A stretch of DNA of 64,000 nucleotides, from positions 1 to 64,000 of the IMG/VR virus record IMGVR_UViG_3300038678_000291. One strand, written 5' to 3'. This DNA is from a virus. The position numbers and the translations under genes were made by a program. Shown here in pieces: positions 1,262 through 27,320 of the stretch. Within the stretch, counting starts at the first letter, position 1. Every line of letters starts with the position of its first letter. The notes beneath the pieces were generated by a model, which was not told the DNA's origin, searched no databases, and saw nothing but the letters and a program-made list of their open reading frames with translations.

Positions 1262-1723
1262 ATGGCAGGATGGACAAACAAAGGAAAAATGAGGGCTGGG
1301 TTGGAGGGTTATTTTCGGGCAGTGGCTACTCCAACGAATCTGTATGTAGCACTGGTAACTTCGGCTAGTGCTCCTGATGCTGATACAAATACCTTAAGCG
1401 ATCTGACTGAGATTACTGCTGGTAATGGATATACTACTGGTGGGTATCAGCTTACTCCAGGAGCTACTGATTTTGATGTGCTGACCGAGGATGATACTAA
1501 TGATCGGGCATTGATTCAGATTAAAGATATTGTCTGGACAGCCAGTGGAGGGTCAATCCCGTCAGCAGGCGGTGGGGCTAGGTATGCGGTGTTGATTGAT
1601 GATAATGCCACTGTAGCCGACCGTGAGGTACTGGCCTATTGGGATTTGACTTCTGACCGTACCGTCAGTGACGGCCAAACTTTGACCTTACAGGATTGCG
1701 AGTTAAGGCTGAACGAGAGTTAG
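1262..1723 (+). CDS. Tail or virion structural protein
   Basis: 153 residues, preceded by AAGGAGG at a good distance. It starts MAGWTNKGKMR and has a pattern typical of phage tail-associated proteins: an N-terminal basic stretch, a central Thr/Asp-rich part and a C-terminal strand-rich part (AYWDLTSDRTVSDGQTLTL). No enzyme motif is seen. Placement directly after the tailspike supports a structural role, but no family can be named with certainty. Confidence 0.6.
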   Translation: MAGWTNKGKMRAGLEGYFRAVATPTNLYVALVTSASAPDADTNTLSDLTEITAGNGYTTGGYQLTPGATDFDVLTEDDTNDRALIQIKDIVWTASGGSIPSAGGGARYAVLIDDNATVADREVLAYWDLTSDRTVSDGQTLTLQDCELRLNES

Positions 1724-1737
1724 GATTGGGGAAAATG

Positions 1738-1763
1738 GAGGGGGCTGAATTTTCAGTCCCCTC
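1738..1763 (+). terminator. Hairpin after the tail gene, terminator-like
   Basis: GAGGGG pairs with CCCCTC, then a G-T wobble, then CTGAA pairs with TTCAG around a TT loop: 12 pairs. It lies 15 bases after the stop of the upstream gene. The tail after the stem is TCTAAAAG, not U-rich, so it may be a weak terminator or a processing or stability hairpin. A similar hairpin with CAGTCCCC follows the gene ending at 57202. Confidence 0.4.
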
Positions 1764-1785
1764 TAAAAGCAAAGGAATTGTCTAT

Positions 1786-2304
1786 ATGAGAAAAATGAGT
1801 TACGATAGTGTGCAAAAAATTGCCAGGGCAGCCGACGGGAGTCTGCGTGATGCTACTACTATGTTTGAGCAAGTTTTGTCTGGCTGTAGCGATCAAGACA
1901 GAATAGAAGGGAAAGATGTAGATCGGATATTAGGAATAACAGATGGGAAGATGGTGGAAAACATGGCTATTGCCATATTGTCTCAAAACGGAGCCCTGGT
2001 TATTGAACAAACAAAAGAATTAATGAACAAGGGGGAGAATCTGGTTTATTTTGCTCAACAACTAATGAAATATTTTAGAAATTTGTTACTATTAAAACTA
2101 TGCGAAAAAACTGATGATTTGCTGGAAATAACCGACAAGGAGTTGAGGGTGTTGAAGTATCAGGCTGATGAGGTGTCTACCCCAAAATTGATTCAGTTGA
2201 TTGAAATTATGTTGGAAAACGAGGGACTTCTCCGGCAAGCATTAAACACTCAGATAATGCTGGAAGTAATATTACTCAAATTATCGGGATTATCATGTCA
2301 TTAG
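1786..2304 (+). CDS. DnaX (DNA polymerase III gamma/tau) fragment
   Basis: The sequence ARAADGSLRDATTMFEQVL matches the part of bacterial DnaX just after its AAA+ core. The following helices (VDRILGITDG, LIEIMLENEGLLRQA, LEVILLKLSG) match the clamp-loader collar domain. The AAA+ core with Walker A and B is absent, so this is only the middle of a DnaX protein. I start it at the ATG after the 1738 hairpin, with AAAGGA upstream; a longer frame starts at 1696 inside the previous gene. It sits among tail genes, so it is probably a captured host fragment. It could be inert, or could compete for the clamp loader. Confidence 0.6.
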   Translation: MRKMSYDSVQKIARAADGSLRDATTMFEQVLSGCSDQDRIEGKDVDRILGITDGKMVENMAIAILSQNGALVIEQTKELMNKGENLVYFAQQLMKYFRNLLLLKLCEKTDDLLEITDKELRVLKYQADEVSTPKLIQLIEIMLENEGLLRQALNTQIMLEVILLKLSGLSCH

Positions 2305-2361
2305 GATTACCAAATATGGTGGCTGCATAGATCAAGAAAGAAACCTAACAAGGAGAATCTA

Positions 2362-2736
2362 ATGGCCGAACTTCTCATAAAAGCAATAGATGCAACTCAC
2401 TCTGACCCCGTTAAGGATAAAGCTGGATGCTATAAGCGGGGAGATATAGTTGTAATTATGCCTGATGGACACGAGTGGGGTAAAGAAGAGAGGTTGCCCA
2501 AATTTATGGTAGTTAAAATACCTGGTATGTCTGTTGCTGAAGCCCGGAAATACATTGAGGGCGAAATTAATGATACTAACCCTGATAATATAATTACGAT
2601 AACTCGCAGAAAGCATAGTTTTCTCGTTGATGATACCCCGTCAAATATCAAGGATGAGCTCAATACTAAAGGTGAAATAACTGTAACCTGGGATGAGATT
2701 AAGGGTTTTGTTCAGGATAAACTAACAAAAACCTAG
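2362..2736 (+). CDS. Unknown phage protein, tail region
   Basis: 124 residues with a clear ribosome site (AAGGAG). It is strand-rich and contains DGHEWGKEERLPKF and a C-terminal helical part (WDEIKGFVQDKL). No family is recognised. Tight spacing with its neighbours on the same strand suggests co-transcription with the tail genes. Confidence 0.55.
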   Translation: MAELLIKAIDATHSDPVKDKAGCYKRGDIVVIMPDGHEWGKEERLPKFMVVKIPGMSVAEARKYIEGEINDTNPDNIITITRRKHSFLVDDTPSNIKDELNTKGEITVTWDEIKGFVQDKLTKT

Positions 2737-2749
2737 AAAGGGAAATGTT

Positions 2750-3121
2750 ATGGCAATTGCCAAGACAAGAACAGACCTAATTGGTACTTCGGTTTCTAAA
2801 ACTACGATTACTGCGGGTAGTTCCAGTACATCAGCATCAAAGGATTGCTCAACCTTTGTTGGTATTCAGATAGGAGGAGGCATAGATTTTGGGGGAACGC
2901 CAGATGATGATGTATTGGTGGAAGTGCTTAGTTCGCCAGATGATACCAATTTTGATACTATAGCCATGCCACCATTTAAAATTGGTTTTTTGGCCTCTAG
3001 CACAGTGCAAAAAACAATCAGGATCGGGCCGGAGGATAAATACCTGAAGGTAAAAACAACCAATGAGGATTCTACTGATAGTATAGATGCTTGGTTATTT
3101 TTGATGGGGATGACCACTTAG
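2750..3121 (+). CDS. Small virion protein, probable beta-sandwich
   Basis: 123 residues, with GGGAAATGTT just before the ATG. It is Ser/Thr-rich with alternating strands (VQKTIRIGPEDKYLKVKTT) and ends in a hydrophobic strand. This profile resembles the head or tail accessory protein at 56762-57202 in this window (a strand pattern with a local VR.Q/LKVK strand). It is likely a decoration or tail accessory protein; this is inference. Confidence 0.5.
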   Translation: MAIAKTRTDLIGTSVSKTTITAGSSSTSASKDCSTFVGIQIGGGIDFGGTPDDDVLVEVLSSPDDTNFDTIAMPPFKIGFLASSTVQKTIRIGPEDKYLKVKTTNEDSTDSIDAWLFLMGMTT

Positions 3122-3134
3122 GGAGGGAAATGTT

Positions 3135-3515
3135 ATGGCAAAGCTGGATGCACAATGGGAACTAACAGATATAACCAAGGGGAAGGCTAACATTAGCATA
3201 ACCCTTTCTTTTGTTACCGAATTTGGTAGCAAGGGATTTTGTGTTGCTTCTAAACCTGCCGAAGAAAAGGATGGTGTAGAAATACTAACTAATCATTTCG
3301 TGGAGGTAATAAAGGGATATATGAGAAGATGTTGTTTTAGCGAAAAAGATATTAAAAAAGCTCCTCCAGGTAAATATGAATTTATTCAGAAGTTGAGAAC
3401 CATATGGGAAGAGAAGGGATATGTGTTTGGCTTTGATCCTGAGGAAATGCCTATAATACCGCCTGGCGAGATAAGAGAAATTTCTGCACTGCTATCTAAA
3501 GCATTGACTACATAA
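3135..3515 (+). CDS. Unknown phage protein, tail region
   Basis: 126 residues, with GGGAGGGAAATGTT before the start, almost the same leader as the gene before it. The N-terminal half is strand-rich (GKANISITLSFVTEF) and the C-terminal half helical with basic residues (YMRRCCFSEKDIKK). Function unknown. Confidence 0.5.
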   Translation: MAKLDAQWELTDITKGKANISITLSFVTEFGSKGFCVASKPAEEKDGVEILTNHFVEVIKGYMRRCCFSEKDIKKAPPGKYEFIQKLRTIWEEKGYVFGFDPEEMPIIPPGEIREISALLSKALTT

Positions 3516-8766: not shown

Positions 8767-9137
8767 AATATCTCCACCACCTTAAACCTAATCACCCACA
8801 TGCTACTTCCGTCATTTTGCCAGTCCCTGAATCCGGCCAGGCTCACATCATACGGCATTGATTTGGGCAGCAAGTGCCGATTCTCATTGAGATACCCAAA
8901 TCCCTCTGCCCAGTAATCCGAATTGGGCATCTCAATCATTGGTTCGTATGTGGGATCACAGGTTAACTGAATAATTGCTACCTGCTTACCCCCGAACCGG
9001 GGAGAGCGGTCGTATGCTTTTATCATGTCACCTTTTTTGAACCGGCGAGCGTAATCATCGTTCCATGCTCGGCGGGTACATGTTTTCCGATTAGCAAGCA
9101 AGGCCGGTACTGTATAAGCAAATGATATGATTTTCAT
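8763..9137 (-). CDS. ASCH-domain protein
   Basis: 124 residues. The opening KIISFAYTVPALLANRKTCTRR and the following KKGDMIKAYDRSPRFGG match the phage type of ASCH domain, a PUA-like RNA-binding fold. Family members are thought to bind RNA or modified bases; the exact role in phages is unknown. It overlaps both neighbours by about four bases. Confidence 0.75.
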   Translation of the reverse strand: MKIISFAYTVPALLANRKTCTRRAWNDDYARRFKKGDMIKAYDRSPRFGGKQVAIIQLTCDPTYEPMIEMPNSDYWAEGFGYLNENRHLLPKSMPYDVSLAGFRDWQNDGSSMWVIRFKVVEIL

Positions 9138-9355
9138 GTAGCAGGTTCTCCCGTCTCTGGTTTATCCAGGAATTTTATATATTCAGGAGCATATACATCT
9201 ACCATCCCGTCCTCATGTTCAACAGTTCCCAGACATCCAGCATCGTCACCATCTTGCCATTGAAACCAGCCGTGAAATAATCCTGTTTTGATTTCATATG
9301 ACTCGGCTCTGTTTATAGGTCCCCCCTCACTATATTCTACTCTGCGCAACTCCAT
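9134..9355 (-). CDS. Unknown small phage protein
   Basis: 73 residues from the ATG with GGGGAGG just upstream (MELRRVEYSEGG). A longer frame starts at 9385 but would run through the inverted repeat at 9376-9402. It contains GLFHGWFQWQDGDDAG and acidic C-terminal residues. No family recognised. Confidence 0.5.
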   Translation of the reverse strand: MELRRVEYSEGGPINRAESYEIKTGLFHGWFQWQDGDDAGCLGTVEHEDGMVDVYAPEYIKFLDKPETGEPAT

Positions 9356-9375
9356 AAATCCTCCCCGGCTGAGTT

Positions 9376-9402
9376 CAACCGTCAAGTTCTACTTGACAGT
9401 TG
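9376..9402. promoter_or_regulatory. 27-bp inverted repeat, copy 1
   Basis: Imperfect palindrome CAACCGTCAAG-TTCTA-CTTGACAGTTG. Read on the other strand it agrees at 25 of 27 positions with the palindrome at 27985-28011. It lies between two genes and has no U-run, so it is not a terminator. Probably a binding site for a dimeric protein. Confidence 0.6.
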
Positions 9403-9409
9403 CTCTTAG

Positions 9410-9643
9410 TTATTCACACCACCGCAATGCCACACATGCATTTATCATGGCCACCGTATCTCCCGCCTCCATAACATCCTTAGCGGCGTTTATACCGTTT
9501 TGTATCATTTTCGCACCGAATGATCCGGCAGGGAATTGGTTGTATTCCCTCACCAACTCCAAGCAACGGGAAATCTCCTGTTTCAATCCGTCTATTAGGT
9601 TCATGGCAAGCATCCACTGAAAGGGTGTAGACAGATTGCCCAC
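9410..9643 (-). CDS. Unknown small phage protein
   Basis: Up to 77 residues, helical, with NLIDGLKQEISRCLELVREYNQ. The longest frame uses a GTG start; ATGs at codons 11 and 14 are possible starts too, and no clear ribosome site decides between them. Function unknown. Confidence 0.45.
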   Translation of the reverse strand: MGNLSTPFQWMLAMNLIDGLKQEISRCLELVREYNQFPAGSFGAKMIQNGINAAKDVMEAGDTVAMINACVALRWCE

Positions 9644-9659
9644 TCCCTTGTTTGCCCCT

Positions 9660-9905
9660 GGCAGCAGGGGCGAACTTCCCCAGCCCGCCCCGTTCCCTTA
9701 AAGGTGCTGCCCATGTGTTCTGTGTTAATCTCTGTTCCTGTACTTTGCGTTTCGCATACTTTGGCGTTCGCTACTTTTTCGCCCCGTCCGCTTTAGCTTG
9801 GCTTTCGGTTTCCGTTGGGTGTCCTACTCGCCGTCGCTCCACACTGGGGCTACTTTTCGCTACTTACGGTTTCGCTACTTTGCGTTTCGGCTACTGAGAG
9901 ATTAA
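9660..9905 (-). repeat. Short-word repeat tract (AGTAG/CGAAA words)
   Basis: Read on the - strand the DNA is built from five-base words such as AGTAG, CGAAA, CGCAA and CCGTA in loose order. The end of the gene at 9850-10089 runs into it (its last codons are made of these words). The rest has no gene. Compare 12513-13378. Confidence 0.55.
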
Positions 9906-10089
9906 CGGGAACAGTAATCCTTACATCTGCCACGATTTTCACCTCCTCTTCTGTTATTTTGAAATTGCCAACCTCAAAGCAAATATTAAAATCCTCATAG
10001 CCAAATTCAGCCATACCCTTGTTGATTGAGGTTGCCAACTCTTGATAAGCATTTAAGACTATATTTATTATAGGAGATTTGACTTCCAT
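9850..10089 (-). CDS. Unknown small phage protein
   Basis: 79 residues. The body is one amphipathic domain (NIVLNAYQELATSINKGM, FNICFEVGNFKITEEEV). The last 15 residues (VAETQSSETVSSEK) are encoded by the word-repeat tract and look like a disordered tail. The start overlaps the stop of the gene before it. Confidence 0.5.
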   Translation of the reverse strand: MEVKSPIINIVLNAYQELATSINKGMAEFGYEDFNICFEVGNFKITEEEVKIVADVRITVPVNLSVAETQSSETVSSEK

Positions 10090-10090
10090 T

Positions 10091-10294
10091 TCATGCCTTT
10101 AATAGGCCCGAGGATAGTTCCCATATGCCCAAAGAAAGAGGCCATAGCCATGCCACATAAACCATGTCATTCCTTCCCGGAGCAGTTCCCGTAATATAAT
10201 TTGATTTCATTGGGTCATAATCTTGTACTATCCCCCTGTCATCATTTTTGTCTACCCTTATAACTCTATCACCTGACTCAAGATTCCTTTTCAC
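10091..10294 (-). CDS. Unknown small phage protein, SH3-like N-terminus
   Basis: 67 residues with a GTG start and GGGAGG upstream. The first half (ESGDRVIRVDKNDDRGIVQDYDP) looks like a small KOW/SH3-like barrel strand pattern. The C-terminal half is hydrophobic (WLWPLSLGIWEL). Function unknown. Confidence 0.5.
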   Translation of the reverse strand: MKRNLESGDRVIRVDKNDDRGIVQDYDPMKSNYITGTAPGRNDMVYVAWLWPLSLGIWELSSGLLKA

Positions 10295-10348
10295 TGTAAC
10301 CTCCCATGTTAATATCTTGGTTATATGGTGGGGGTGGGTAGATTTGAA

Positions 10349-10549
10349 CTAAAATTTACTCACGGCTTGTATCATCTTCCCTAATGCCTCAACCTCTTTT
10401 CTGTGATTTTCATAAATCTTCCGTGCATGTAAATACAATTTTTCTGCCTCTTCCCTTTCACCGATTTCCTCTAAATATTTGCCGTGTCGATGAACCAAGC
10501 ATGATAGCAAACTGTCTACCCGAATAAAAAAATCTCTCATTTCCATCAT
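10349..10549 (-). CDS. Unknown small helical protein
   Basis: 66 residues with GAGG before the ATG. Almost all helix, with a likely coiled coil (YLEEIGEREEAEKLYLHARKI) that looks like one tetratricopeptide-type hairpin. It lies directly after the tRNA gene. Confidence 0.5.
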   Translation of the reverse strand: MMEMRDFFIRVDSLLSCLVHRHGKYLEEIGEREEAEKLYLHARKIYENHRKEVEALGKMIQAVSKF

Positions 10550-10578
10550 GACTTACCTCATAAAAGTCATGCTTTTTG

Positions 10579-10653
10579 TGGTGGAGACAGAAGGACTCGA
10601 ACCTTCGCACCTCTGCTTATGGGGCAGATGCTCTACCGCTGAGCTATGTCTCC
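10579..10653 (-). tRNA. tRNA-Met (CAU) with unusual C33
   Basis: 75 bases with all arms: acceptor GGAGACA/TGTCTCC, D stem GCTC/GAGC, anticodon stem TCTGC/GCAGA, T stem GAAGG/CCTTC with loop TTCGAGT, and an encoded ACCA end. The anticodon loop is CCCATAA, giving anticodon CAU with C at position 33 where U is nearly invariant. It could be elongator Met, or Ile if the C is lysidinylated. The tRNA starts seven bases after a structured RNA element (10660-10746). Confidence 0.9.
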
Positions 10654-10659
10654 CGTATT

Positions 10660-10746
10660 ATTCCCTGCGTGGTAGCGAGACCAGGCCATCCATAGGCTAC
10701 ATGCTTAGTGTTCCTGCTCCCAGGGGTGCATCCCACCGCAGGGAAT
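10660..10746 (-). ncRNA. Structured RNA next to the tRNA
   Basis: A perfect 10-bp helix (ATTCCCTGCG with CGCAGGGAAT) closes about 67 bases. Inside are hairpins GGTG/CACC, CCTG-GGAG-CAGG and GTAGC/GCTAC, so the shape is a multi-branch junction. A 20-base stretch on its 5' side (10735-10754 on the + strand) is identical to 20124-20143 within the large RNA of this operon, where it also forms a closing helix. It lies between an HTH gene and the tRNA. Confidence 0.65.
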
Positions 10747-10757
10747 CTTGTCAAGTC

Positions 10758-10964
10758 CTATTCATCAACACCAACGAGAAGCTCTTTCCACGAAACCTTC
10801 AATGCCCTTTTAATCGATCTGAGGGTTAAGAAGGTGGGGTTGAGCAGTCTACCCGTTTCTATTTTTGATAAATATCCCCTCTCCATCCCAGTCTTTCCGC
10901 CTATATCCCCCTGGCTAAGATTCTTGCTTCTCCGTAATTCACCGATCCTCTCGCCGATTTTCAT
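10758..10964 (-). CDS. HTH (XRE/Cro-like) regulator
   Basis: 68 residues, essentially one DNA-binding domain: KIGERIGELRRSKNLSQGDI, then GMERGYLSKIETGRLLNPTFLTL. This is a typical XRE five-helix fold without an extra domain. GGAGGAAAACC lies before the start. Confidence 0.8.
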   Translation of the reverse strand: MKIGERIGELRRSKNLSQGDIGGKTGMERGYLSKIETGRLLNPTFLTLRSIKRALKVSWKELLVGVDE

Positions 10965-11400
10965 GGTTTTCCTCCTTGGTTTGTAGTGAGGGTGGATGGT
11001 CTGTCCACGCCCTCGGATTAAGATTCCTATATGTGTCCATTATATCAGCGGCAACTGTCCAGCTCAATGGATATTCGGGACCGCGCCCTCGCGGGCAATG
11101 CAACCGTTTCAGGCTAAGCATCCCTGCATTACCGGCTCTCAAAACAATATCCGGAGTTTTGCGATTGATTGTACCGTAAATCCGGCAAATCAATGGCCTC
11201 TCCGTATAATTGGAACACCCGGATTCTGTGAGATATTCACAGGCTGGCATGTTGGTCTTGTCACCCACCCCCATCGCTTTACGCTCCCAAAAGGTCATGG
11301 GAACTATCCCGCAGCAATCATGGCAGCCTGCCTTGCACTGCATAGGGGGGATCGCCCGCCTTAGGCCCATGATAATCCTGCGCTGTTTTTTCGGGTTCAT
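10939..11400 (-). CDS. YkgJ-family cysteine-cluster protein
   Basis: 153 residues. The motif CKAGCHDCCGIVPMTFWE near residue 22 and later CEYL..SGCSNY..RPLICRIYG match the YkgJ family (zinc or iron-sulphur binding cysteine cluster). Role unknown; many are encoded in phages. Its 3' end overlaps the HTH gene start and its 5' end overlaps the gene upstream. Confidence 0.75.
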   Translation of the reverse strand: MNPKKQRRIIMGLRRAIPPMQCKAGCHDCCGIVPMTFWERKAMGVGDKTNMPACEYLTESGCSNYTERPLICRIYGTINRKTPDIVLRAGNAGMLSLKRLHCPRGRGPEYPLSWTVAADIMDTYRNLNPRAWTDHPPSLQTKEENHENRREDR

Positions 11401-11720
11401 TTAGATTCCGGGTGGGGGAAAAATAATGTTCCTGGCCTTGCATTAATTGCAGCCTGAATTGCTATGGTATCATCGGTAACCCCATCTCCATAAAGGGTGG
11501 TTGATTCAAGAAAAATATCCTCTACTTTTTTGCCCAACACACCGCAGATTCTCAACGCCAGGGAAACGCTGGGCACAATCCTTCTGTTAATGATGCGGTT
11601 CATATACTCCCTCTTTACACCAACCCTTCTTGCCAATTCTGCCTGGGTCATGTTCATAGAAAGCAATGCCTGGCCGATATTGTTTCCTGGTGGGATTCTC
11701 CTCGTGTCTCTTGTTCCCAT
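11397..11720 (-). CDS. XRE regulator fused to a tailspike entry fragment
   Basis: Residues 1-70 are an XRE HTH domain (GQALLSMNMTQAELARRVGV, YMNRIINRRIVPSVSLAL). From about residue 73 the sequence changes to TLYGDGVTDDTIAIQAAINA and PGTLFFP, the exact entry motif of pectate-lyase-like tailspikes, then stops after PESK. The join is inside one reading frame. This appears to be a recombination product between a regulator and a tailspike gene. The tailspike at the window start lacks just this part because it is cut by the window edge. Confidence 0.7.
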   Translation of the reverse strand: MGTRDTRRIPPGNNIGQALLSMNMTQAELARRVGVKREYMNRIINRRIVPSVSLALRICGVLGKKVEDIFLESTTLYGDGVTDDTIAIQAAINARPGTLFFPHPESK

Positions 11721-11745
11721 GATCTACTCCTTTCTTTTTGTTGTA

Positions 11746-11916
11746 TGGTGGCTGGCAGGATTCTCACCTACAGCTTTGTATCATTTTAACCCTTTAATGG
11801 CTATAACCCACTTTGCGTTACAGGGAGTGGTTATGCCTCCCATCTCATCTAAGAGTTTAGAAAGGCGCGAAGAAGGCCAGTCTCCGCAAGTTTTATAGAG
11901 CTAAACCGCAGCCACC
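11746..11916 (-). ncRNA. tRNA-like element A
   Basis: GGTGGCTG at the 5' side pairs with CAGCCACC at the 3' side, followed by A. Just inside the 3' side is a T-arm-like hairpin (GTAGG-TGAGAAT-CCTGC). The middle, about 130 bases, has helices GTTTAG/CTAAAC and GGGAG/CTCCC in place of normal D and anticodon arms. It is too long for a tRNA and shows no group I intron core that I can recognise. It shares its 5' and 3' boxes with elements B and C. Confidence 0.5.
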
Positions 11917-11960
11917 ACACAATTCCATGTTACTCTATGGGCAGGTTCTCCAGCAGGCGG

Positions 11961-12512
11961 TCATGCTATTTTGGTCTCCTGCCCTTTGTATATTATTGGG
12001 CTGGAAACGCCGTTTTCTTGCTTCAGCTTTTCCATTTTTTTCACAAAATCCGTGACTGGTTTTAATCCTACTGGTTCAAGGGGCAGCTCCCCCTGTATCC
12101 TTTCCATCTTCACGGTGATTATCTTACCCGTATTATGAAATAGCCAGCTAGCAAGCTCTTCACTGGTGTTTACATCCTCCAGGGTAAGCTGGAGAATGGC
12201 GACCACTTGATCATCCAGCTTCTTAACGACAACCACGGCTTTAGATAATCGCCTTGCCCCCAAGGGTATCCAATTACCTTCGCCTTCGCCAACCAAGCGA
12301 ATATCGTATACTTCGTTGAGCAACGGAATATTGCTATACTCAACCTTCTTTTCCTCAGCAAATGCAGGGTCAAGAAACCTCTCCAGCCGTATACCCATGT
12401 CGGCCATCTCTGCCGGACAATCATCAATTCTGGTCGCAAAACTAAACTTAGCGGATTTACAAACCGTTCCGCCCTCAATTGTATACTTTCCTAATTCTAC
12501 CTGTAGTTCCAT
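11961..12512 (-). CDS. Unknown early phage protein
   Basis: 183 residues from the ATG with AAAGGAGGG upstream (MELQVELGKYTIEGG). Mixed strands and helices with a basic end (FVKKMEKLKQENG). It is followed by tRNA-like element A and preceded by a long non-coding tract. In many phages a gene at this spot accompanies RecT-type recombination genes, but no family is recognised here. Confidence 0.5.
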   Translation of the reverse strand: MELQVELGKYTIEGGTVCKSAKFSFATRIDDCPAEMADMGIRLERFLDPAFAEEKKVEYSNIPLLNEVYDIRLVGEGEGNWIPLGARRLSKAVVVVKKLDDQVVAILQLTLEDVNTSEELASWLFHNTGKIITVKMERIQGELPLEPVGLKPVTDFVKKMEKLKQENGVSSPIIYKGQETKIA

Positions 12513-13378
12513 TTCAGCCCTCCTTTTGTTAATATTCACAACAATCGACTGCCGCCCTTAGTTAACAGTTGCAACACCTCACATTACTTTACCTCTCCTT
12601 GCTTTTACAATTCGGCACTGCACAACACTTCACTTCACATTGACTTAACCCTACGAAAGCGCATTCTGCCCTCGCTATGCTAAACGGGACCAGACTTTTG
12701 CTCTGCCGCCACAGTACCATACATCGCCAGGCTCTTACTGGACTTATCCTCGCTCTGCACCACCACTACCTCTCCTTACCATACAATACATATACTTTGC
12801 TTAACACTTCTCTGTTGTGCCTCTACCATATCTAACCCTTCTACACACAAACAAAACTAGACCGCTCCCTACATCACAGATACCTTGATCCACCTTGCCG
12901 TGCCCTTGCTTAACGTTTCCATACTAAACAAAACCCCCACGTATCCATACCATACAGCACTCTACGGAACTATACCCTTACCTCGCTGATCTTTGCCCTG
13001 CTGTGACTCTGCTACTCGGTACATCACTGCGCCCCGCCGTTACCTTACCCGACTGCACCTCGCAAATACTCGGCGGTACTCACGCCCAACCAAACCGAAC
13101 CTTACCCGACCTTGCCATCACTTGACTTCACATGACAGCACCGCGCTTTACTTAGACCCTACTCAACAGTACACTACACTTGCCTTACTAGACTTCACTA
13201 CACCGTAACCAAACCACACAGCACACATCAACACCCTGCCTTACCACAACCGTACCTTACCTGTCTGCACTATCACCTTACCTTGCTTTACCTTTCAACA
13301 CCCGACACTAGCTTTGATTTTCCCCACTTGGCCTGACCGTACATTGGCCTTTCTGTACTTTACCGGGCTACCACAAGA
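12513..13378 (-). repeat. 866-bp non-coding tract with five-base phasing
   Basis: There is no convincing gene here. On the - strand (the transcribed strand of this operon) it is G-rich and C-poor, and long parts can be cut into five-base words ending in GG or GT (for example CAAGG TCGGG TAAGG TTCGG TTTGG TTGGG). It separates two genes of the same operon. No long hairpin was found by eye. Confidence 0.6.
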
Positions 13379-14083
13379 CTATTTTTTGGCATAAACATTG
13401 GTGGTGGTCATTTGGAAATAATCGCTTTTCTCCTTTTTCCAAAGCTCATACGAAAACGATCCATAGCGGGCTGTCCGCCACTGGGCAAGTCCAATGAACT
13501 GTCCATAGAGCAGCAATAGCCTCAATTGCTGTTCGCTGAGCAATCCCAATAATACGGTAATCTCAAGCTCCAATGAGCTTCCGGCCAGAATCTTATCTGA
13601 TCGGGCCACAAAAACCCGGGGGCCCTGCTTGGTTTGCCCGCGGAGGGGTCTTTCCAGGTTCCCGTCAGGCACCTTGATAAAATACCCCTCCCTGCTCTTG
13701 ACATGAAGCCGCCTTGGGCCTACCTGTACCAGGTTTGAGATATGGTGCCGGAGGTTGGTGATCCCTATCCCCTTGTTGGTTTTCAGGGTGTTACCTGCGT
13801 GCTTCAGGTACCCCCTTATCATATAATCATAGAAAAACAGCCCCTTATCGTCCTGGTGAAATCCTGTCCAACCCTTTTCCTCTTCGTTGAACTCCGACAA
13901 TGTATCCGTCTCATTATCCGTGACAGTTTGGGGTTTCTTGCTTTCTATGAACGCCTTGTAGACTTCCGGGTCCTTGGGGGCGGTTCCCAGGACATCCTCC
14001 AAGAAAGTCAATTTGGTGCCATAGACTGCACTGTCGAAAGTCAAGACCGCCGCTTCATCCTTCTTCTTTTTTTTCTCCGTCAT
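13379..14083 (-). CDS. Phage early protein, possible RAMP-like fold
   Basis: 234 residues. Proteins of this type (KGWTGFHQDDKGLFFYDYMIRG, RPLRGQTKQGPRV, LAQWRTARYGSFSYE) recur near phage recombination genes, with unknown role. The ending GLAQWRTARYGSF resembles the glycine-rich loop of RAMP proteins (Cas5/6/7 folds), but this is only a local likeness. It begins with a Lys-rich segment. It is followed by the long phased tract. Confidence 0.5.
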   Translation of the reverse strand: MTEKKKKKDEAAVLTFDSAVYGTKLTFLEDVLGTAPKDPEVYKAFIESKKPQTVTDNETDTLSEFNEEEKGWTGFHQDDKGLFFYDYMIRGYLKHAGNTLKTNKGIGITNLRHHISNLVQVGPRRLHVKSREGYFIKVPDGNLERPLRGQTKQGPRVFVARSDKILAGSSLELEITVLLGLLSEQQLRLLLLYGQFIGLAQWRTARYGSFSYELWKKEKSDYFQMTTTNVYAKK

Positions 14084-14101
14084 TTGTTTACCTCCTCCCG
14101 T

Positions 14102-15445
14102 TTAGTTAATCTTTGTGATCCTGCCACCTTCAATGACGATCCCGACATTGCCGGTCTCGTCAACTACTTCCATTAAGACGGTTAGGTCGTTCTCCCCGGC
14201 GAATTCATCTATAATCTTCATGTTGTCGCTATCCAGTGAGCTTCCCTCGTATATCCGGATCAGGCTTGCTTTTGGATTCATCTTCGCCGATATTGCCAGT
14301 CCAACCTTTATCCTTTCGGATTGGCTGCCCTGTGCCAGGGGTAACCCATTGAATCTGATCCCGGTCTCGTCAACACTTAATCCATGTATGGGGAATTTTG
14401 CCCCTTGCAATGCTCCGTCTTTTTGGTTATCTAGTTCTCCTATGTCATGGGTTAGATTGTTTGAATCATCGTGCAACGATTCAATCACCATTTTTAATGT
14501 AATTCTTTTTGACTGTTGGTTTTGGGCTTCCCTGATTTCCCTGTTCGTTTCCTCCGCCTCTGCTATTTTGAGTCCAATAGCATCGAAATCAGGATCGATT
14601 AAACCATCAAGTTGTTGCTGGAGACTATCCCGTAAGAAACTTTTTTTCTTGAATGATTCTTGTAATCCTGATAATTGTCTTTTATTGTCTTCAATGGCAA
14701 GCTCTAGTTCTACTATCTCGTTTTTAGTGACAGTAATTTCATCGTTATAATGCAGAACATCCTTGTTTGCTGCATCCAAGTCTTTCCGTATCTTGTCGTT
14801 ATTGGTTTTGATTTCTGATGCCTCACCATATTTTTGCGTAAGTTCGATTATACAAACCTCATCAACCAGCAAGTCGGGATTAGGCAGCTCTATCCCCGCC
14901 AACTCACCGTTTTTGTCTTTGGCGTTTCTGTTTACCCGGGTTCTCTCGTCATATAGAACTTGCCTGTCCCGCGCCAATTCATCAAGATCGATTTCCACCC
15001 CGGCCAGCTTCAATAATATATCCCTAGCCTTTTTGGGTTCTTTTAGCATCTTGCGAGTAAACTCAAGTGGATCGATTGTCAATGGCCCCAGTATATTGTC
15101 AAGCATTGTTTTGGGGCTTTTAAACTCAGCCCCATTTTTGCTTGTTAAGATTAGTTTAGATGCAAGCACATCGCCCTTCAGCAGCCAAAATTTCCTGGTG
15201 GCTGTATATCCCTCCATCTCAACTACGACATACCCCTTTTTCTCGCCCCTGCTAATCGGTTCTGCCGGGCAGAGCGCAGTGCCCCCCACTACTATCGCAA
15301 AAAGATCAAGGGCAGTGGACTTCCCGGCATCATTTCTCCCCGATATCTTCACCACGTGTTTGCCTTGCAGGTCAATCTTTACCGCTTTGAGCTGCATGAT
15401 ATTGTGGGCTTCCAGTCCAATAACCCTACCGCCGCCGTCTTTCAT
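14102..15445 (-). CDS. SMC/RecF-like AAA ATPase
   Basis: 447 residues. Walker A is GRNDAGKST near residue 35 of a RecF/Rad50-like N-terminus (LEAHNIMQLKAVKIDLQGKH). A coiled-coil region follows (about residues 160-320), and the C-terminal lobe has GSQSERIKVGLAISA as the ABC signature. The Walker B region reads SLIRIYEGSSLD, with Glu but without the usual double acid, as in several phage ATPases of this type. Likely works with the exonuclease and RecT in recombination or replication. Confidence 0.75.
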   Translation of the reverse strand: MKDGGGRVIGLEAHNIMQLKAVKIDLQGKHVVKISGRNDAGKSTALDLFAIVVGGTALCPAEPISRGEKKGYVVVEMEGYTATRKFWLLKGDVLASKLILTSKNGAEFKSPKTMLDNILGPLTIDPLEFTRKMLKEPKKARDILLKLAGVEIDLDELARDRQVLYDERTRVNRNAKDKNGELAGIELPNPDLLVDEVCIIELTQKYGEASEIKTNNDKIRKDLDAANKDVLHYNDEITVTKNEIVELELAIEDNKRQLSGLQESFKKKSFLRDSLQQQLDGLIDPDFDAIGLKIAEAEETNREIREAQNQQSKRITLKMVIESLHDDSNNLTHDIGELDNQKDGALQGAKFPIHGLSVDETGIRFNGLPLAQGSQSERIKVGLAISAKMNPKASLIRIYEGSSLDSDNMKIIDEFAGENDLTVLMEVVDETGNVGIVIEGGRITKIN

Positions 15446-15651
15446 TTTAATCCCTCCATGTTTTCAATTAATTCTTGGATTTCATTGCCCAGGTCTAAAA
15501 AGCTATCATCGTCATAAGATTGACCCTCTTCTCTGATTGCAATGAGTTGGTTTGCCGCTATCATGGCCTCCCTGCGGCAGAGAATATATTCTAGTTCCAG
15601 CCTGGTCGCCAATAGCTTGATTGACAATAATTCATGCTCGTTCAATTTCAC
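15442..15651 (-). CDS. Small helical protein
   Basis: 69 residues, GTG start in a GTGA overlap with the upstream gene and GGGAGGTAAG before it. Almost all helix (LLSIKLLATRLELEYILC). Similar in length and style to the gene at 23444-23632 (both have RLATE/RLELE followed by I.CRREA or ICLREG), so the two may be distant paralogues. Confidence 0.5.
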   Translation of the reverse strand: MKLNEHELLSIKLLATRLELEYILCRREAMIAANQLIAIREEGQSYDDDSFLDLGNEIQELIENMEGLK

Positions 15652-15797
15652 CTTACCTCCCTCGTTTCAGGGTAATGCCAGGTTTTACATCCATGTTTTT
15701 CACAACATATAATCTTACAAATCGTTGGATTTTTTTCTGGAATATCTGATGGTTTACACCATTCACATATATACTTAATTTTTTCGCTGTCTTTCAT
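15648..15797 (-). CDS. Cysteine-rich microprotein
   Basis: 49 residues (MKDSEKIKYICEWCKPSDI) with C..C, C...CC and C pairs and a His, a likely zinc knuckle. GGAGGTAAA lies before the ATG. It overlaps the next gene by four bases. Confidence 0.55.
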   Translation of the reverse strand: MKDSEKIKYICEWCKPSDIPEKNPTICKIICCEKHGCKTWHYPETREVR

Positions 15798-15798
15798 T

Positions 15799-16101
15799 TT
15801 ACCTCCTTCTTTCTTGGGCGAATTTCAACATCTGTTCACTGGAAATCAGCTTTTTCGTTAATAAATTGCCAAGAATGCTGTGCCGTTTTCTCCACCACTT
15901 TTCCCTTCTTTTTTCAAAAATGATTCCGTCTGAGGGATTAATTAAGCGGAATAAATCTTTAAACACTCTTAGCGTTGCCACATCTCCTGCTTTCACATAT
16001 GCCTTGTTTCCTGAAAGAATAGTCAACACCATCCCGGGCTTTTTTTGATAAACTTCGTTAAGAAAATCAAAATATTCGGTCGCTTTGCTTTCTGTTGTCA
16101 T
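15799..16101 (-). CDS. Unknown small phage protein
   Basis: 100 residues, basic and helical, with EKRREKWWRKRHSILGNLL in the second half. Could bind nucleic acid. No family recognised. Confidence 0.5.
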   Translation of the reverse strand: MTTESKATEYFDFLNEVYQKKPGMVLTILSGNKAYVKAGDVATLRVFKDLFRLINPSDGIIFEKRREKWWRKRHSILGNLLTKKLISSEQMLKFAQERRR

Positions 16102-16111
16102 TCTATTACAC

Positions 16112-16294
16112 TTACCATTCTATGTGATCGGTAAACCCGCATTCAGGGCAGGTTACCGTGTCAGGGGGGTCTGTTGAATTATCCTCCGGGTCTGGCCCGC
16201 CGCCGCCTTGCAGCCTTAAACGCTCGCCGCATACCGGGCAAAAGAATTCTGGAGTTTTGTCGCCGTTTGTTTCTATCCAGTGAGTTGGCTTCAT
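16112..16294 (-). CDS. Zinc-ribbon microprotein
   Basis: 60 residues with two CxxC pairs (CPVCGERL and CPECGFTDH) separated by a Gly/Pro/Asp linker. This is a typical small zinc ribbon. It overlaps the start of the HTH gene before it by four bases. Confidence 0.6.
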   Translation of the reverse strand: MKPTHWIETNGDKTPEFFCPVCGERLRLQGGGGPDPEDNSTDPPDTVTCPECGFTDHIEW

Positions 16295-16608
16295 TCCACG
16301 TATCTCCCTGTTCTGCCAGTTTCGTGGTCATAAAACTGTCCTCTCGCAAGTTTTATCGCAGGTTTTATGCCACTTGGCCGTGCCACCTCTCTGTATTTGG
16401 CATCCTCCCATTTCCCAATGATTTTCGCTAGGGGCACCCCTATTGCCCCTGCAATCTTGTTCATTGTGGATAAAGTAGGATTTGGAAGCCTACCCAATTC
16501 TATCCGGTTATAATAATCCCTGGTCAGTCCTGCTCGGAGAGCAACCTCAACCTGCTTCAGGTTAAGGTCAAGCCTGACTTTCCTGAAAAGTGATCCTATG
16601 TGCGTCAT
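16291..16608 (-). CDS. HTH (XRE) regulator
   Basis: 105 residues. Residues 5-62 form an XRE domain (LFRKVRLDLNLKQVEVALRAG, YYNRIELGRLPNPTLSTMNKI). A basic C-terminal tail follows. It overlaps both neighbours, forming a run of two HTH genes. Confidence 0.8.
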   Translation of the reverse strand: MTHIGSLFRKVRLDLNLKQVEVALRAGLTRDYYNRIELGRLPNPTLSTMNKIAGAIGVPLAKIIGKWEDAKYREVARPSGIKPAIKLARGQFYDHETGRTGRYVE

Positions 16609-16847
16609 GATTTTTTCTCCCCATCATAAATAATAATCAACCTACAGTTTAGCGCCTTCAAAATCCTCTTTATCGTTTTTACCCCTGGATTTGGTGTTAG
16701 CCCTTTCTCAATATAAGATATTCCACGCGGTGCTATACCAGCTTTTTTCCCTAATTGTTCTATGGACAGACCGACATGCTCCCTATATATCCGGATTGCC
16801 TTGCCCACAGAGATTACTGGCGTTGAGGTTGTTTTGTCGTCTGTCAT
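16605..16847 (-). CDS. HTH (XRE) regulator
   Basis: 80 residues. XRE domain over residues 14-70 (GKAIRIYREHVGLSIEQLGK, GISYIEKGLTPNPGVKTIKRI). ATGA overlaps on both sides tie it to its neighbours. Confidence 0.8.
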   Translation of the reverse strand: MTDDKTTSTPVISVGKAIRIYREHVGLSIEQLGKKAGIAPRGISYIEKGLTPNPGVKTIKRILKALNCRLIIIYDGEKKS

Positions 16848-17047
16848 GGTTTATCCTCTCCTATCTGAAAGTAATGCTTGTTGCAATCACAAGGCTGCCA
16901 AAAACCGGCTTTGCAATCCAGCACACCTTCACCCCCGCAGGGATACAAGTCATCTATCCCGCAGGCACATAGCTTTGGATTAAATAACCCGTCGTAGCCG
17001 TTGGAGACAAGGTATTCTTTTATAATTTCTCTTCCCGTTAATGCCAT
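16844..17047 (-). CDS. Cysteine-rich phage protein
   Basis: 67 residues, with the pattern KEYLVSNGYDGLFNPKLCAC then C, C and CDC, seen in many small phage proteins that start with a helix and carry a C-terminal cysteine cluster. Role unknown. GGAGATTATT precedes the start; tRNA-like element B is just upstream. Confidence 0.6.
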   Translation of the reverse strand: MALTGREIIKEYLVSNGYDGLFNPKLCACGIDDLYPCGGEGVLDCKAGFWQPCDCNKHYFQIGEDKP

Positions 17048-17068
17048 AATAATCTCCTAAGTTAATGC

Positions 17069-17220
17069 GGTGGCTGGACAGGATTCGAACCTGCTGTTTA
17101 ATGGGAACTTGGATAATATTACGGTCGTGGTAACCGTAGGCCATTATCACTTTTTACCCAACTTAACCCATCCTTTCTCTTCGTAAAGAGAGAGCGTTAG
17201 CCCACACGCCGCCGGCCACC
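17069..17220 (-). ncRNA. tRNA-like element B
   Basis: Has a fully standard T arm (GCAGG-TTCGAAT-CCTGT) followed by CCAGCCACC, which pairs with GGTGGCCGG at the 5' end with one mismatch. A D-like hairpin (GCGT/ACGC) and a small hairpin (TCTCTT-TACG-AAGAGA) follow. The middle then has a long stepped helix (TGGG..TTGG with CCAA..CCCA) capped by TACGGT/ACCGTA. About 150 bases in all, so not a normal tRNA. Confidence 0.55.
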
Positions 17221-17245
17221 ACAAGTCTGTGTTTCCCGCCGTGTG

Positions 17246-17304
17246 CTCGCCCCGCCTCGTTACAACACTCCCTGCACCCATGCCTGGGCACCCCCAACGG
17301 CGAG
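17246..17304 (-). ncRNA. Hairpin region before tRNA-like element B
   Basis: CTCGCC pairs with GGCGAG over about 47 bases; inside is a TGCCCA/TGGG hairpin. A similar CTCGCC/GGCGAG hairpin lies before element C (about 19860-19895). It follows the recT stop directly. Confidence 0.4.
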
Positions 17305-17309
17305 TTGGT

Positions 17310-18365
17310 TTATTTTTGTAGCTTATCTACGGCTGCACTAATCCTTTTGGACAGTGCCTCAAGCTGGCCCAACTCTGCCGTCTCAAGGTTTATGCTTTTG
17401 CTGTCCGCTTCCACAGAAACCGTATCGCTTCCTGTGGGAGCCTCGCTCAGCAATATTTCTCTGCCTTCCCCAATGGATGCCAGCAAGGTTTCTCGCTGCT
17501 GGCTGTCGGCGTCCTCCTGGGTTGCTGGCTGTTTTGGTGGAGGGGTAAAAGATGATTTGGCCTTCTTCAGTTTTTCTCCCAAGCCATTGGCCTTCCGTGC
17601 AGTCTTATCTGCTACCGCCTCACTCTCTACCTCAATGATATCCCCATCCCCACCAAAGACCTCCCGTTGGGAAATGCCCAAATCGCCCAGGGTGTCCACT
17701 GCCGCCACCTTCTGTAGCCGTGGGCATTGGGGGAGGGTCTTTGCCAGTCGCCGGATAACAGTCTTTTTTATCATTTCGGGTTCATGCTTGTTCCACGGGG
17801 ACTCAGGGGCTTTTATAGATGCTGAATTTTTCTTGATCTTATCGACTTCCTCAATCCACATGAATTCAAACTTTTTAATACCCCCGACAAGCTCGGCTAT
17901 GGCATATGCCCCGATTATTGCCTCTCCTCTTTTGCCTGGCGGTAATGGGGTATGCCTAAGTTCCTGGTTGGTTCCATATTCTAAGTTAAAGGGTTCGCTT
18001 TCATATACCAGCCGGGCATAAATATCTACCACCTTCTCTGACCGCCGGGCCAGTTCAATCAATCCCCTGTAGCCCGGAATCAACTGCACCCTCAAGACAC
18101 CCCTGACACGGTAAGGCACCAGGTAGGCATGCCCCAAAATACTATCGGGCACAAGGCGCAAAATGGCACATTCCAGCAAGCTGGCAATCAACGAACCCCT
18201 ATCACACTCCAGTAGCTTGGGGTTGCGCTGGACGGTTATCATGGCCACCCGGATAAAATAATCAACGGGGATCACCTTCCCCAGTGCTTCGCTAAGCGCT
18301 CCTTGCCTTGCATCCAACAAGTTCCTGACATTGTTAACCTGAACTACTAAGTCTTTGCTTCCCAT
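17310..18365 (-). CDS. recT: RecT single-strand annealing protein
   Basis: 351 residues. The core matches RecT: RVAMITVQRNPKLLECDRGSL, LECAILRLVPDSILGHAYLVPY, then VQLIPGYRGLIELARRS and KAPESPWNKHEPEMIKKTVIRRLAK. It anneals complementary single strands in phage recombination together with the exonuclease encoded just upstream. The C-terminus (after about residue 240) is low-complexity and probably disordered. Confidence 0.92.
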   Translation of the reverse strand: MGSKDLVVQVNNVRNLLDARQGALSEALGKVIPVDYFIRVAMITVQRNPKLLECDRGSLIASLLECAILRLVPDSILGHAYLVPYRVRGVLRVQLIPGYRGLIELARRSEKVVDIYARLVYESEPFNLEYGTNQELRHTPLPPGKRGEAIIGAYAIAELVGGIKKFEFMWIEEVDKIKKNSASIKAPESPWNKHEPEMIKKTVIRRLAKTLPQCPRLQKVAAVDTLGDLGISQREVFGGDGDIIEVESEAVADKTARKANGLGEKLKKAKSSFTPPPKQPATQEDADSQQRETLLASIGEGREILLSEAPTGSDTVSVEADSKSINLETAELGQLEALSKRISAAVDKLQK

Positions 18366-18376
18366 GTATTACCTCC

Positions 18377-18751
18377 TTAATCGGTTATTGGTTGAATAAC
18401 TGAATGGCTTGTGATTTCCGGTTCCACATAGTCATCTTCCCCAAAAGATATTTCTACCCAGTCTACGGGGGTTGAATTATCTTTATATTTATATTCATCT
18501 AAAATTGCTTTTATCTTTTCCCTGACACCATCAAGCAAGTCACTAAGCACCCATCCTTCCTTGCTGCCATCAGGGGCAACAAGGAAACTGCTATAAGAAT
18601 TTATTAAAGCGGGGACAGTGTCCGAAACCGGTATCTCCCTTTTTTCGCCCTCGTCCATTACTCTAATTGCTTTAATTCTTTTGTGAATTTCTTTTAAGAC
18701 ATCAGGGTTCCAGCTACAGATTACGATTGCATGGTGTTTCATGTATCCCAC
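18377..18751 (-). CDS. Unknown protein between exonuclease and RecT
   Basis: 124 residues. It has KHHAIVICSWNPDVLKEIHKRI at the start, a profile shared by many small phage proteins sitting between exonuclease and recT genes. Function unknown; a link to recombination is suggested by position only. Confidence 0.55.
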   Translation of the reverse strand: MGYMKHHAIVICSWNPDVLKEIHKRIKAIRVMDEGEKREIPVSDTVPALINSYSSFLVAPDGSKEGWVLSDLLDGVREKIKAILDEYKYKDNSTPVDWVEISFGEDDYVEPEITSHSVIQPITD

Positions 18752-18762
18752 AACATTCCTCC

Positions 18763-19710
18763 TTAAATTGCGTAAATTCTTAGTGGCCTGGATACGCTTT
18801 CCTTGAGATATTTCTGGGCGATTTCCGGCTCATCGTGTTTTAATGCCCCGGTATCCAGCCGGTTTGATACTACAGGTTTATAATAAATCCTTGAGCCAAT
18901 TGTCTCGGCCACTCCCCATTTCCCCATCTTTTCCTTGATGCGGGTTTTTACACCTTCCAACAACTCTCCCGCCTCATCGGCGATCTCTTTGGCTCTCCAG
19001 TATTCAATCATCAACGAATCAAATTCAAGAGAGATTATATCAGGCCATTCAGGGGCATCCTTCACGCTTGCCAAGAGATGCTTGCCCTGACAACTCGTGC
19101 GCCAATTGCATTTAGGGCATCGCTTATCTGTGGGCTTAAGCCGATCCGGTTCCTTGCCCACGGTCATCTCATCCCAAAACAAGGTGCAGGCCGAAACAAT
19201 CTCTTTGATGATTGATTCATCCCTCTCTACATCGGGAGCCAAGAACCCCACATTGTCAGGGCAAAAAACCCCAAAGCCTCCCACTTCAGACCCCCAAATA
19301 GCTATCTGGTCTTGTAATTGCAAAATATAGGCATCGGGGATACCGTTCCGCCTTATTTCGTTGAACATCCGCTCTCCTGGAACTTTTATTTCTAAAGGCA
19401 CCCTGTCTTTTACGATCACCGTCAATCTATCCAGGTGACAAAACATTGGGGAGGTTTCCATCCTAATTGTTTCTTTGTGCTCCTCTACCAGCCTTCCTGT
19501 CTTATCCGCATATAGATCGGCCACAATAGGTTCAAAGAAGTTTCCCCGCTCCATTGCCACGGTCGGTATAAGGGCATAATCCGGTGCCACTTGTTTTTTG
19601 CGGTAGAACAGCCGCCTCCGGCATCCATAGGGTTCCAGGTTGAATACATCTCCAATCTCAGATGCTCCAATGCCAAGGTGACGCCTAGCAAGTTGTTCTT
19701 CTGTTAGCAT
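18763..19710 (-). CDS. YqaJ-type exonuclease with C-terminal cysteines
   Basis: 315 residues from the ATG with AAGGAGAAATA upstream (a longer frame runs back into element C). GIGASEIGDVFNLEPYGCRRRLFYRKK and VAMERGNFFEPIVADLYADKTG, then FCHLDRLTVI and PLEIKVPG, give the PD-(D/E)xK active site of lambda-type exonucleases. CPKCNWRTSCQGK near residue 205 resembles a Cas4/AddB-like metal cluster region. It makes 3' tails for RecT. Confidence 0.88.
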   Translation of the reverse strand: MLTEEQLARRHLGIGASEIGDVFNLEPYGCRRRLFYRKKQVAPDYALIPTVAMERGNFFEPIVADLYADKTGRLVEEHKETIRMETSPMFCHLDRLTVIVKDRVPLEIKVPGERMFNEIRRNGIPDAYILQLQDQIAIWGSEVGGFGVFCPDNVGFLAPDVERDESIIKEIVSACTLFWDEMTVGKEPDRLKPTDKRCPKCNWRTSCQGKHLLASVKDAPEWPDIISLEFDSLMIEYWRAKEIADEAGELLEGVKTRIKEKMGKWGVAETIGSRIYYKPVVSNRLDTGALKHDEPEIAQKYLKESVSRPLRIYAI

Positions 19711-19740
19711 TATTTCTCCTTTCTTGATTGGTGGTAAGTG

Positions 19741-19844
19741 GTGGCTGGCAGGACTTTCATCTCCCTGCCTGGAACGGTTCCCCGCTACTCGCTTCGCCCC
19801 GATCGGAAAAGAAGCTCTTGGTGCATGCCAAAACCGCAGCCACC
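19741..19844 (-). ncRNA. tRNA-like element C
   Basis: GTGGCTGCGG at the 5' side and CCTGCCAGCCACC at the 3' side, as in element A. GTGGCT pairs with AGCCAC, and GGCAGG pairs with CCTGCC around an 11-base loop in place of a T loop. Inside are TTGG-CATGCA-CCAA, GCTTC/GAAGC and GGAA-CCG-TTCC hairpins. It lies between the large RNA and the exonuclease start. Confidence 0.5.
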
Positions 19845-19854
19845 ACATCGTTCA

Positions 19855-20465
19855 CCAGCCCCTCGCCTCGATCCCGGTTGCAGTCGGCGAGCCCACCCTG
19901 TGATTCCCCGCTGGCATAATTAGTTTGTCCCCCGCCCCCCTGGTTCCCTGTATTTCCCCACCCAGAGGATTAGGCCGCCCAATGTCACATCACCTCGGCC
20001 AGCGGGGAGCATTAGGTTCCCTGCGGGCAGCTTGCTCATGTACGCTGCGGATAGCCTCCAGCCTTGACAAGTGGAATGCAAAGGCACTGTCTGGCTATTT
20101 TCCCCTATCTGTCCACCACTGATACCGCAGGGAATCTTGTCAAAATGTGGATGGGCATGCGCTAGCCTTTGTCAACGCCGTTAACTCTCCCGAAGGATAC
20201 AAAGGCGGGCCGACGCCACCCCAGAACCATGGGCGTACTCAGCATTTCTGCCTATCCGTTTCCCTGTTTAATGTGCGGGCTTACACATATACCCAAGTCG
20301 GTATTTGCCCATCCACATTGTCAAAGTGCAGTTTGTTTGCCTAGCTCTCCTCTCTCCAGGCTTGGCAGCCCCTAGGTCGTACTCACCACCGCTGCTACCC
20401 TTCCATTTCCTGTTTGCTCTAGCCTTACCACATCCTCAGCTTGGGCAAGCTTCAGTCGTTACTGG
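19855..20465 (-). ncRNA. Large structured RNA (about 600 nt), class unknown
   Basis: No gene fits here, but long-range pairings are dense. A 13-bp helix joins 20306-20318 with 20145-20157. A 10-bp helix joins 20125-20134 with 20017-20026. An 8-bp helix joins 20136-20143 with 20064-20071 and crosses the previous one (a pseudoknot). A 10-bp helix joins 19998-20007 with 19906-19915. The domain closed by the 13-bp helix holds a three-way junction with a UCC-UUCG-GGA hairpin and smaller hairpins (ATACC/GGTAT, ATGTG/CACAT). Size, phage setting and nearby tRNA-like elements recall the GOLLD and ROOL classes, but I cannot assign it. Confidence 0.75.
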
Positions 20466-20864
20466 CTATTGCCTGGACTGGTTGCCCGGTGCTGGTGGAT
20501 GGGTTAGCAAGTGCTCATGCTCGTAAATATTGCCAAGTATTTCCCAATCAAGTGTTACGTGCCCTCTAAAATATCGGCTCCATGTTTTTTGACTTGCAAA
20601 AGGATAGAAACCTGTCTTGCCTTTTAGCCAGCTCACTATTTCCGTTTCGCCCCAGTTATTTAAAACAATATCCCCCTCATATATTTCTCGGCCATTCTTG
20701 TCTATGAGGCCAGTGTATTGCATAAGCTCAACCTTGTCTCCACCGAGGTCATGAAAAATTAGTTCATTTTTGCCTAGCCATTTTCCAATTGTGTGGTTTG
20801 ATGTAGGGAAAACATCAAATCTCATTTCTTGTTTATCCCATGCTCTAAACTTAAACTCCCTCAT
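20466..20864 (-). CDS. YopX-family phage protein
   Basis: 132 residues. REFKFRAWDKQEMRFDV, VELMQYTGLIDKNGREIYEGDIV and GNIYEH are the standard landmarks of the YopX family. Role unknown; common in phage early regions. Its tail (THPPAPGNQSRQ) reads into the start of the large RNA. Confidence 0.85.
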   Translation of the reverse strand: MREFKFRAWDKQEMRFDVFPTSNHTIGKWLGKNELIFHDLGGDKVELMQYTGLIDKNGREIYEGDIVLNNWGETEIVSWLKGKTGFYPFASQKTWSRYFRGHVTLDWEILGNIYEHEHLLTHPPAPGNQSRQ

Positions 20865-21454: not shown

Positions 21455-21596
21455 TTTCTTTTTTTTTGCTCTTTTTTGTTTTTTCCTTGATTAGCTCAAC
21501 AAGCAGGTCTTGCAAGCTCTTCCCTTCTAATGCAGCAATTGCCTTAATTTCTCTGTGGACTTGCTCATTAAGGTCTCTTAAGTTTATATTGGCCAT
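21441..21596 (-). CDS. Ribbon-helix-helix protein
   Basis: 51 residues starting MANINLRDLNEQVHREIKAI with GGAGATTAAAC upstream. NINLRDL forms the strand and the rest two helices, as in Arc/CopG regulators. The Lys-rich tail suggests DNA binding. It overlaps the nuclease gene. Confidence 0.75.
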   Translation of the reverse strand: MANINLRDLNEQVHREIKAIAALEGKSLQDLLVELIKEKTKKSKKKENVSI

Positions 21597-27312: not shown

Positions 27313-27320
27313 GGTTGGTT
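27031..27320. repeat. 290-bp exact direct repeat, copy 2
   Basis: Pairs with 25335-25624; the copies are 1696 bp apart in the same orientation. Recombination between them would delete five small genes. Confidence 0.9.

Follow-up and report, generated by a model that had tools for sequence, protein, structure and literature searches.

The window analysed here, a stretch of 64,000 nt, corresponds to positions 1–64000 of an 83,017-bp virus record. The presence of portal/head-morphogenesis, terminase, RecT, YqaJ, YopX and several XRE-type ORFs indicates that it derives from a tailed bacterial virus. Public phage records provided distant relatives only (YqaJ, ≤28%; AAA ATPase, ≤35%; RecT, ≤41%), and searches via the YqaJ, XRE, ATPase and RecT proteins retrieved none closer than ~36–44% identity. 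Between 7 and 22 kb, genes are mostly encoded on the minus strand, as are all elements considered below, and several XRE-type ORFs share this region with two sets of putative structured RNAs. One of these comprises a small element adjacent to a tRNA gene (module A) and two tRNA-like leaders (t1, t2); the other is a larger, compound structure at 20319–19738:

10349–10549, minus strand: 66-aa ORF after tRNA-Met, no family assigned
10579–10653, minus strand: tRNA-Met (CAT), CCA encoded, 71.2 bits
10660–10746, minus strand: module A, closed by ATTCCCTGCG/CGCAGGGAAT (10 bp), interior of 67 nt
10735–10754, minus strand: shared 20-mer TTGACAAGATTCCCTGCGGT, copy 1, consisting of unpaired TTGACAAG and the 5′ strand of the module A closing helix
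10758–10964, minus strand: XRE-type HTH ORF, its stop codon 3 nt before the shared 20-mer
11039–11067, minus strand: candidate promoter (consensus match only), TTGAGC-17-TATAAT, its -10 preceded by TG
11741–11922, minus strand: tRNA-like leader t1, upstream of a second XRE ORF that starts at 11720
17066–17238, minus strand: tRNA-like leader t2, preceding an ORF that starts at 17047, T-arm canonical (GCAGG-TTCGAAT-CCTGT)
19738–19846, minus strand: module t3, 10-bp closing helix and T-arm-like hairpin
19905–20008, minus strand: module M3, 11-bp perfect closing helix
20017–20134, minus strand: module B, closed by TTCCCTGCGG/CCGCAGGGAA (10 bp), minimum-free-energy (MFE) structure three-armed and cloverleaf-like
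20124–20143, minus strand: shared 20-mer, copy 2, exact match to TTGACAAGATTCCCTGCGGT
20144–20319, minus strand: module M1, 14-bp perfect closing helix

The same region also contains ~800 bp without a long ORF at 12560–13378, with C strongly depleted on the minus strand, a plus-strand GC skew of ~-0.5 and GTAAGGT-like repeats, and an intergenic stretch at 9724–9906 with imperfect GTAGCGAAA/CTACTTTGCG-type repeats.

Module A, together with its 20-mer, begins 3 nt past the stop codon of the XRE ORF. The sequence-only reading had placed the element directly in front of tRNA-Met, and on the minus strand this is the case, with 6 nt separating the end of the helix from the tRNA. The tRNA itself has the anticodon loop CCCATAA, i.e. 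a C at position 33, which is near-universally U in tRNAs. Folding of module A was more favorable on the minus strand (z -2.65) than on the plus strand (z -1.78), and its interior, folded alone, did not exceed shuffles in stability (z +0.7). The closing helix is predicted to be paired in both 400- and 900-nt contexts, nine of its ten pairs reaching a probability of ~0.9 or more in the latter, and by inspection of the sequence it extends further through GGUGG/CCAC, in which a single G is bulged. Only the tRNA at 10579–10653, and not module A, was called as tRNA by ARAGORN and the Rfam model RF00005. Elements closed by 9 bp occurred just upstream of 2 of the 52 tRNA genes in fetched loci, presumably by chance. 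A coding reading of module A was discarded: the 36-aa ORF with a TTG start overlaps the tRNA, and module B has no comparable ribosome site. Likewise rejected was the TTGACA of the 20-mer as a promoter. At neither A nor B does a -10 element follow 16–18 nt downstream, unlike at other TTGACAA sites of this phage, where the motif recurs as a -35 with a TATACT-like -10 ~17–18 nt further on (30706+, 35701+, 42044-, 27789-, 21667-). The candidate promoter at 11067–11039, with its extended -10, lies upstream of the XRE ORF, module A and tRNA-Met and could drive these as one unit, its identification resting on a consensus scan that gave 30 matches in the region as compared to 20.5 expected. That module A is transcribed as RNA is a plausible prediction.

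The 20-base identity reported between 10735–10754 and 20124–20143 is exact, and in both places the minus-strand TTGACAAGATTCCCTGCGGT (10754–10735 and 20143–20124) provides the 5′ arm of a 10-bp helix. Helix A joins 10660–10669 to 10737–10746 (ATTCCCTGCG) and helix B joins 20017–20026 to 20125–20134 (TTCCCTGCGG). The common closing helix claimed in the sequence-only reading thus holds for a 9-bp core, the tenth pair differing between A and B. Also the 3′ flanks are similar, namely CGCAGGGAA-TAAT in A and CGCAGGGAA-CC-TAAT in B or, equally, GCAGGGAA-TAAT and GCAGGGAA-CC-TAAT. Allowing up to three mismatches, the 19-mer TTGACAAGATTCCCTGCGG still returned these two sites alone (0.02 matches expected from shuffles). 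TTCCCTGCG is present exactly four times in the 64-kb window, every copy being an arm of helix A or B, as compared to 0.56 expected copies, and none of 100 shuffles reached four. Exact 20-mer repeats arose 0.075 times per shuffled window, and nearly all other real ones belong to a 290-bp duplication or to short local repeats. (The duplication, ~290 bp and exact, relates 25335–25624 to 27031–27320 and contains two identical 93-aa minus-strand ORFs.) Recurrence of the 20-mer plus helix at two remote, same-strand intergenic sites is therefore far above chance. The rest of the two modules differs, as had been stated: a forced full-length alignment of A and B yields scattered identities between the ends, and similarity of the interiors does not exceed chance. 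The ends hence appear to have been selected. "Shared strand, separate loops" was in this respect an apt description, the ends being identical and the interiors diverged, and it hints that one factor recognizes or processes both RNAs. The closing-helix pairs themselves hardly vary between A and B.

What had been treated as one large RNA resolves, at 20319–19738, into four consecutive modules with perfect closing helices of 14, 10, 11 and 10 bp, the second of which (B) has the ends of module A. The last module, the tRNA-like t3, ends 28 nt before the start codon of the YqaJ exonuclease, directly before its ribosome site. It resembles t1 and t2 in that all three combine long closing helices with T-arm-like hairpins and lie ~20–28 nt before a start codon, an arrangement by which they may punctuate a leftward transcript. 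In addition, t1 and t3 agree in 17 consecutive bases of one closing strand and in almost the entire opposite strand. Thus, with A matching B and t1 matching t3, two unrelated closing helices link the 10.6–11.9 kb region with the large RNA.

Helices of this kind are concentrated in this part of the phage. Counting perfect helices of ≥10 bp that close 50–220 nt, the region of 9–22.5 kb contains 11, as compared to ~1–2 in shuffles; other parts of the window contain 3–5, close to expectation. Among 325 windows of 10–13.5 kb, the majority taken from fetched phage and bacterial loci, only two exceed the region in helix excess, one of them being a tandem repeat. For five of seven modules, the folding z-score was better on the minus strand, i.e. 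the strand of the tRNA and the genes. Neighboring modules differ in arm sequence and keep the geometry, which argues for function as RNA and renders a DNA-level role of the shared element less likely.

Searches of 2.9 million viral contigs, of 50,697 phage records and of Rfam yielded no homologue, so that covariation does not contribute to the support for the helices. The exact 19-mer is absent from the same 2.9 million contigs. The looser pattern TTCCCTGCGG...CGCAGGGAA occurred there in nine stretches, mostly within ORFs, none of them A-like or adjoining a tRNA gene, and the single match to a tRNA-like end pattern proved on inspection to contain no tRNA-like element. In 4.06 Mb of fetched loci, the motifs of A and t1/t3 were not found with two to three mismatches allowed. 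Short perfect blastn matches of t1 or t2 to some of these loci looked chance-like; the one inspected, in contig L211, lies within an ORF. Two distant loci show a geometry comparable to the modules described here, as analogies rather than homologues. A Desulfobacterales MAG contig, which encodes the nearest relative of the 13379–14083 ORF (50% over 76 aa), has in the gap after RecT (1990–2153) a leader that lies just upstream of a ribosome site and is closed by the 8-bp helix GCGCCCCT/AGGGGCGC. L211, an unrelated 93.7-kb phage contig, features six consecutive modules at 1571–3224 with perfect closing helices of 10–17 bp and z-scores of about -3 to -9 in a stretch that is largely ORF-free. At least two of these modules contain GGTTCGA T-arm hairpins, and one includes an apparent complete cloverleaf (with C at position 33) that neither ARAGORN nor RF00005 calls.

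Among known RNAs, ROOL and GOLLD are closest in kind. ROOL forms a homo-oligomeric RNA nanocage. It is a large structured phage or prophage RNA of ~600–700 nt, often encoded near tRNA genes; GOLLD is likewise a phage RNA often near tRNAs, which can lie in its linker, and a member with a solved structure was found downstream of a Met-tRNA (PMC12286853). The function of these large, near-tRNA phage RNAs is unknown (PMC12286853). The four-module RNA at 20319–19738 is similar in kind to ROOL, but is built of consecutive helix-closed modules, the last of them tRNA-like, and module A stands alone; compared with GOLLD, the RNA described here is shorter and modular, and module A lies upstream of its tRNA. 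Scanning of 9000–22000 with cmscan (E up to 5) gave no match to the Rfam covariance models of ROOL or GOLLD, and at gathering threshold the whole window matched tRNA only; we therefore do not claim membership in either family. Another precedent comes from Y RNA and YrlA, bound by Ro60/Rsr, in which a conserved closing stem surrounds a variable, sometimes tRNA-like interior. Here, too, the 5′ and 3′ ends are predicted to pair with each other and to enclose an interior that varies, and this Y-RNA-like architecture may serve as a lead; the same cmscan returned no Y RNA or YrlA match. TROVE (PF05731), the domain of the Ro60/Rsr partner, was not matched anywhere in the 83-kb record (0 hits), although this record may be incomplete, and no known end-binding factor was found to be encoded by the phage. 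Finally, the put sites of phage HK022 are two related, cis-acting antitermination RNA elements that a single phage carries in separate leaders. Elements of the put type are promoter-proximal and mediate read-through of terminators, whereas module A is preceded by a stop codon, not by a promoter, and lies within a presumed transcription unit.

The repeat, the two helices, the four-module layout, the t1/t3 end pair and the adjacency to tRNA-Met are direct observations. As a working explanation, to which we give somewhat less than an even chance, module A would form a structured leader within a transcript of the XRE ORF and tRNA-Met; RNase P would release it, and its end-helix would serve for recognition or stability, as a module also present in the large RNA. 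Here, we infer that one minus-strand transcript covers the XRE ORF, module A and, after it, tRNA-Met. Cleavage by RNase P at 10654/10653 would then free tRNA-Met, with module A remaining as a 3′ end that is capped by its hairpin and has a short AAUACG tail. The closing helix plus the unpaired UUGACAAG before it would constitute a portable end-module, used in both A and B, and a single phage or host factor, be it an RNA-binding protein or a nuclease, might recognize these ends and stabilize or process both RNAs, leaving interiors free to differ between RNAs with the same ends. Of the roles that had been envisaged for a common module, recognition is the best-supported, given that ends are kept and interiors are not in two end types (A/B and t1/t3); dimerization is not specifically supported by cofolding. 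A related possibility is pairing between module A and the large RNA by strand exchange of the shared helix, for trans regulation or dimerization, since the 5′ strand of either RNA could pair with the other's 3′ strand as well as with its own. In RNA–RNA prediction, the A+B cofold indeed lay 9.8 kcal/mol below the sum of the monomers, but the homodimers gained nearly as much (A+A, 7.5; B+B, 6.2 kcal/mol) and the intramolecular helix of A is already formed with a probability near 1, so that we deem such pairing highly improbable.

Common descent might account for the shared ends if A and t1 were old copies of B and t3, their identity being a leftover or kept by gene conversion and devoid of present function. 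That the same pair of regions is connected by two different shared stretches would fit such a relic, as would the scattered identities across the A/B alignment. Yet, plain divergence would not give 20 of 20 identical end positions around interiors at chance level, and the order of modules is not the same in the two regions, making this explanation unlikely. Alternatively, the inverted TTCCCTGCG arms or the 20-mer could bind a protein as DNA, e.g. an XRE-type regulator or a recombination protein, and the arms might be brought together by looping. Several XRE-type ORFs in the region, confinement of the motif to the two inverted pairs, and use of TTGACAA as a -35 of phage promoters are consistent with a DNA site. 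However, neither copy has the matching -10, the arm centers are 77 and 108 bp apart with no common helical spacing, the 20-mer is non-palindromic, and the recurrence of one geometry with unrelated arms in neighboring modules fits RNA folding better than a single operator; we regard a DNA site as rather unlikely. A and B may also be degenerate tRNA-like cloverleaves of one class with t1–t3, either mimicking tRNAs or providing signals for RNase P/Z cleavage by which the leftward transcript is punctuated. In t1–t3, the T-arm-like hairpins adjoin the 3′ strand of the closing helix, the three-armed MFE structure of B has a 5-bp hairpin at the T-arm position, A is able to form the corresponding GUAGC/GCUAC hairpin, and every tRNA or tRNA-like element lies just before an ORF. 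Against this, the cloverleaf of A is 4.2 kcal/mol worse than its MFE structure, a 5-bp Watson–Crick hairpin at the T-arm position arises in 13–18% of shuffles, and the tRNA callers accept tRNA-Met only, which leaves the cloverleaf reading decidedly doubtful.

The locus thus presents a known kind of arrangement, a putative structured phage RNA next to a tRNA, in which a small, lone module has the ends of a large-RNA module. By extension, some phages might encode helix-clamped RNA modules with conserved, factor-recognized ends and with interiors that are exchangeable and often tRNA-like. Such modules would occur alone, as in the leaders A, t1 and t2, or in series within large RNAs (20319–19738 and, independently, the six-module array in L211), a generalization that we consider unlikely at present. 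Should a factor bind the shared helix, an RNA of just 95 nt would offer a handle on that factor and on the role of the large RNA, and such RNAs would seem to evolve by shuffling helix-closed modules.
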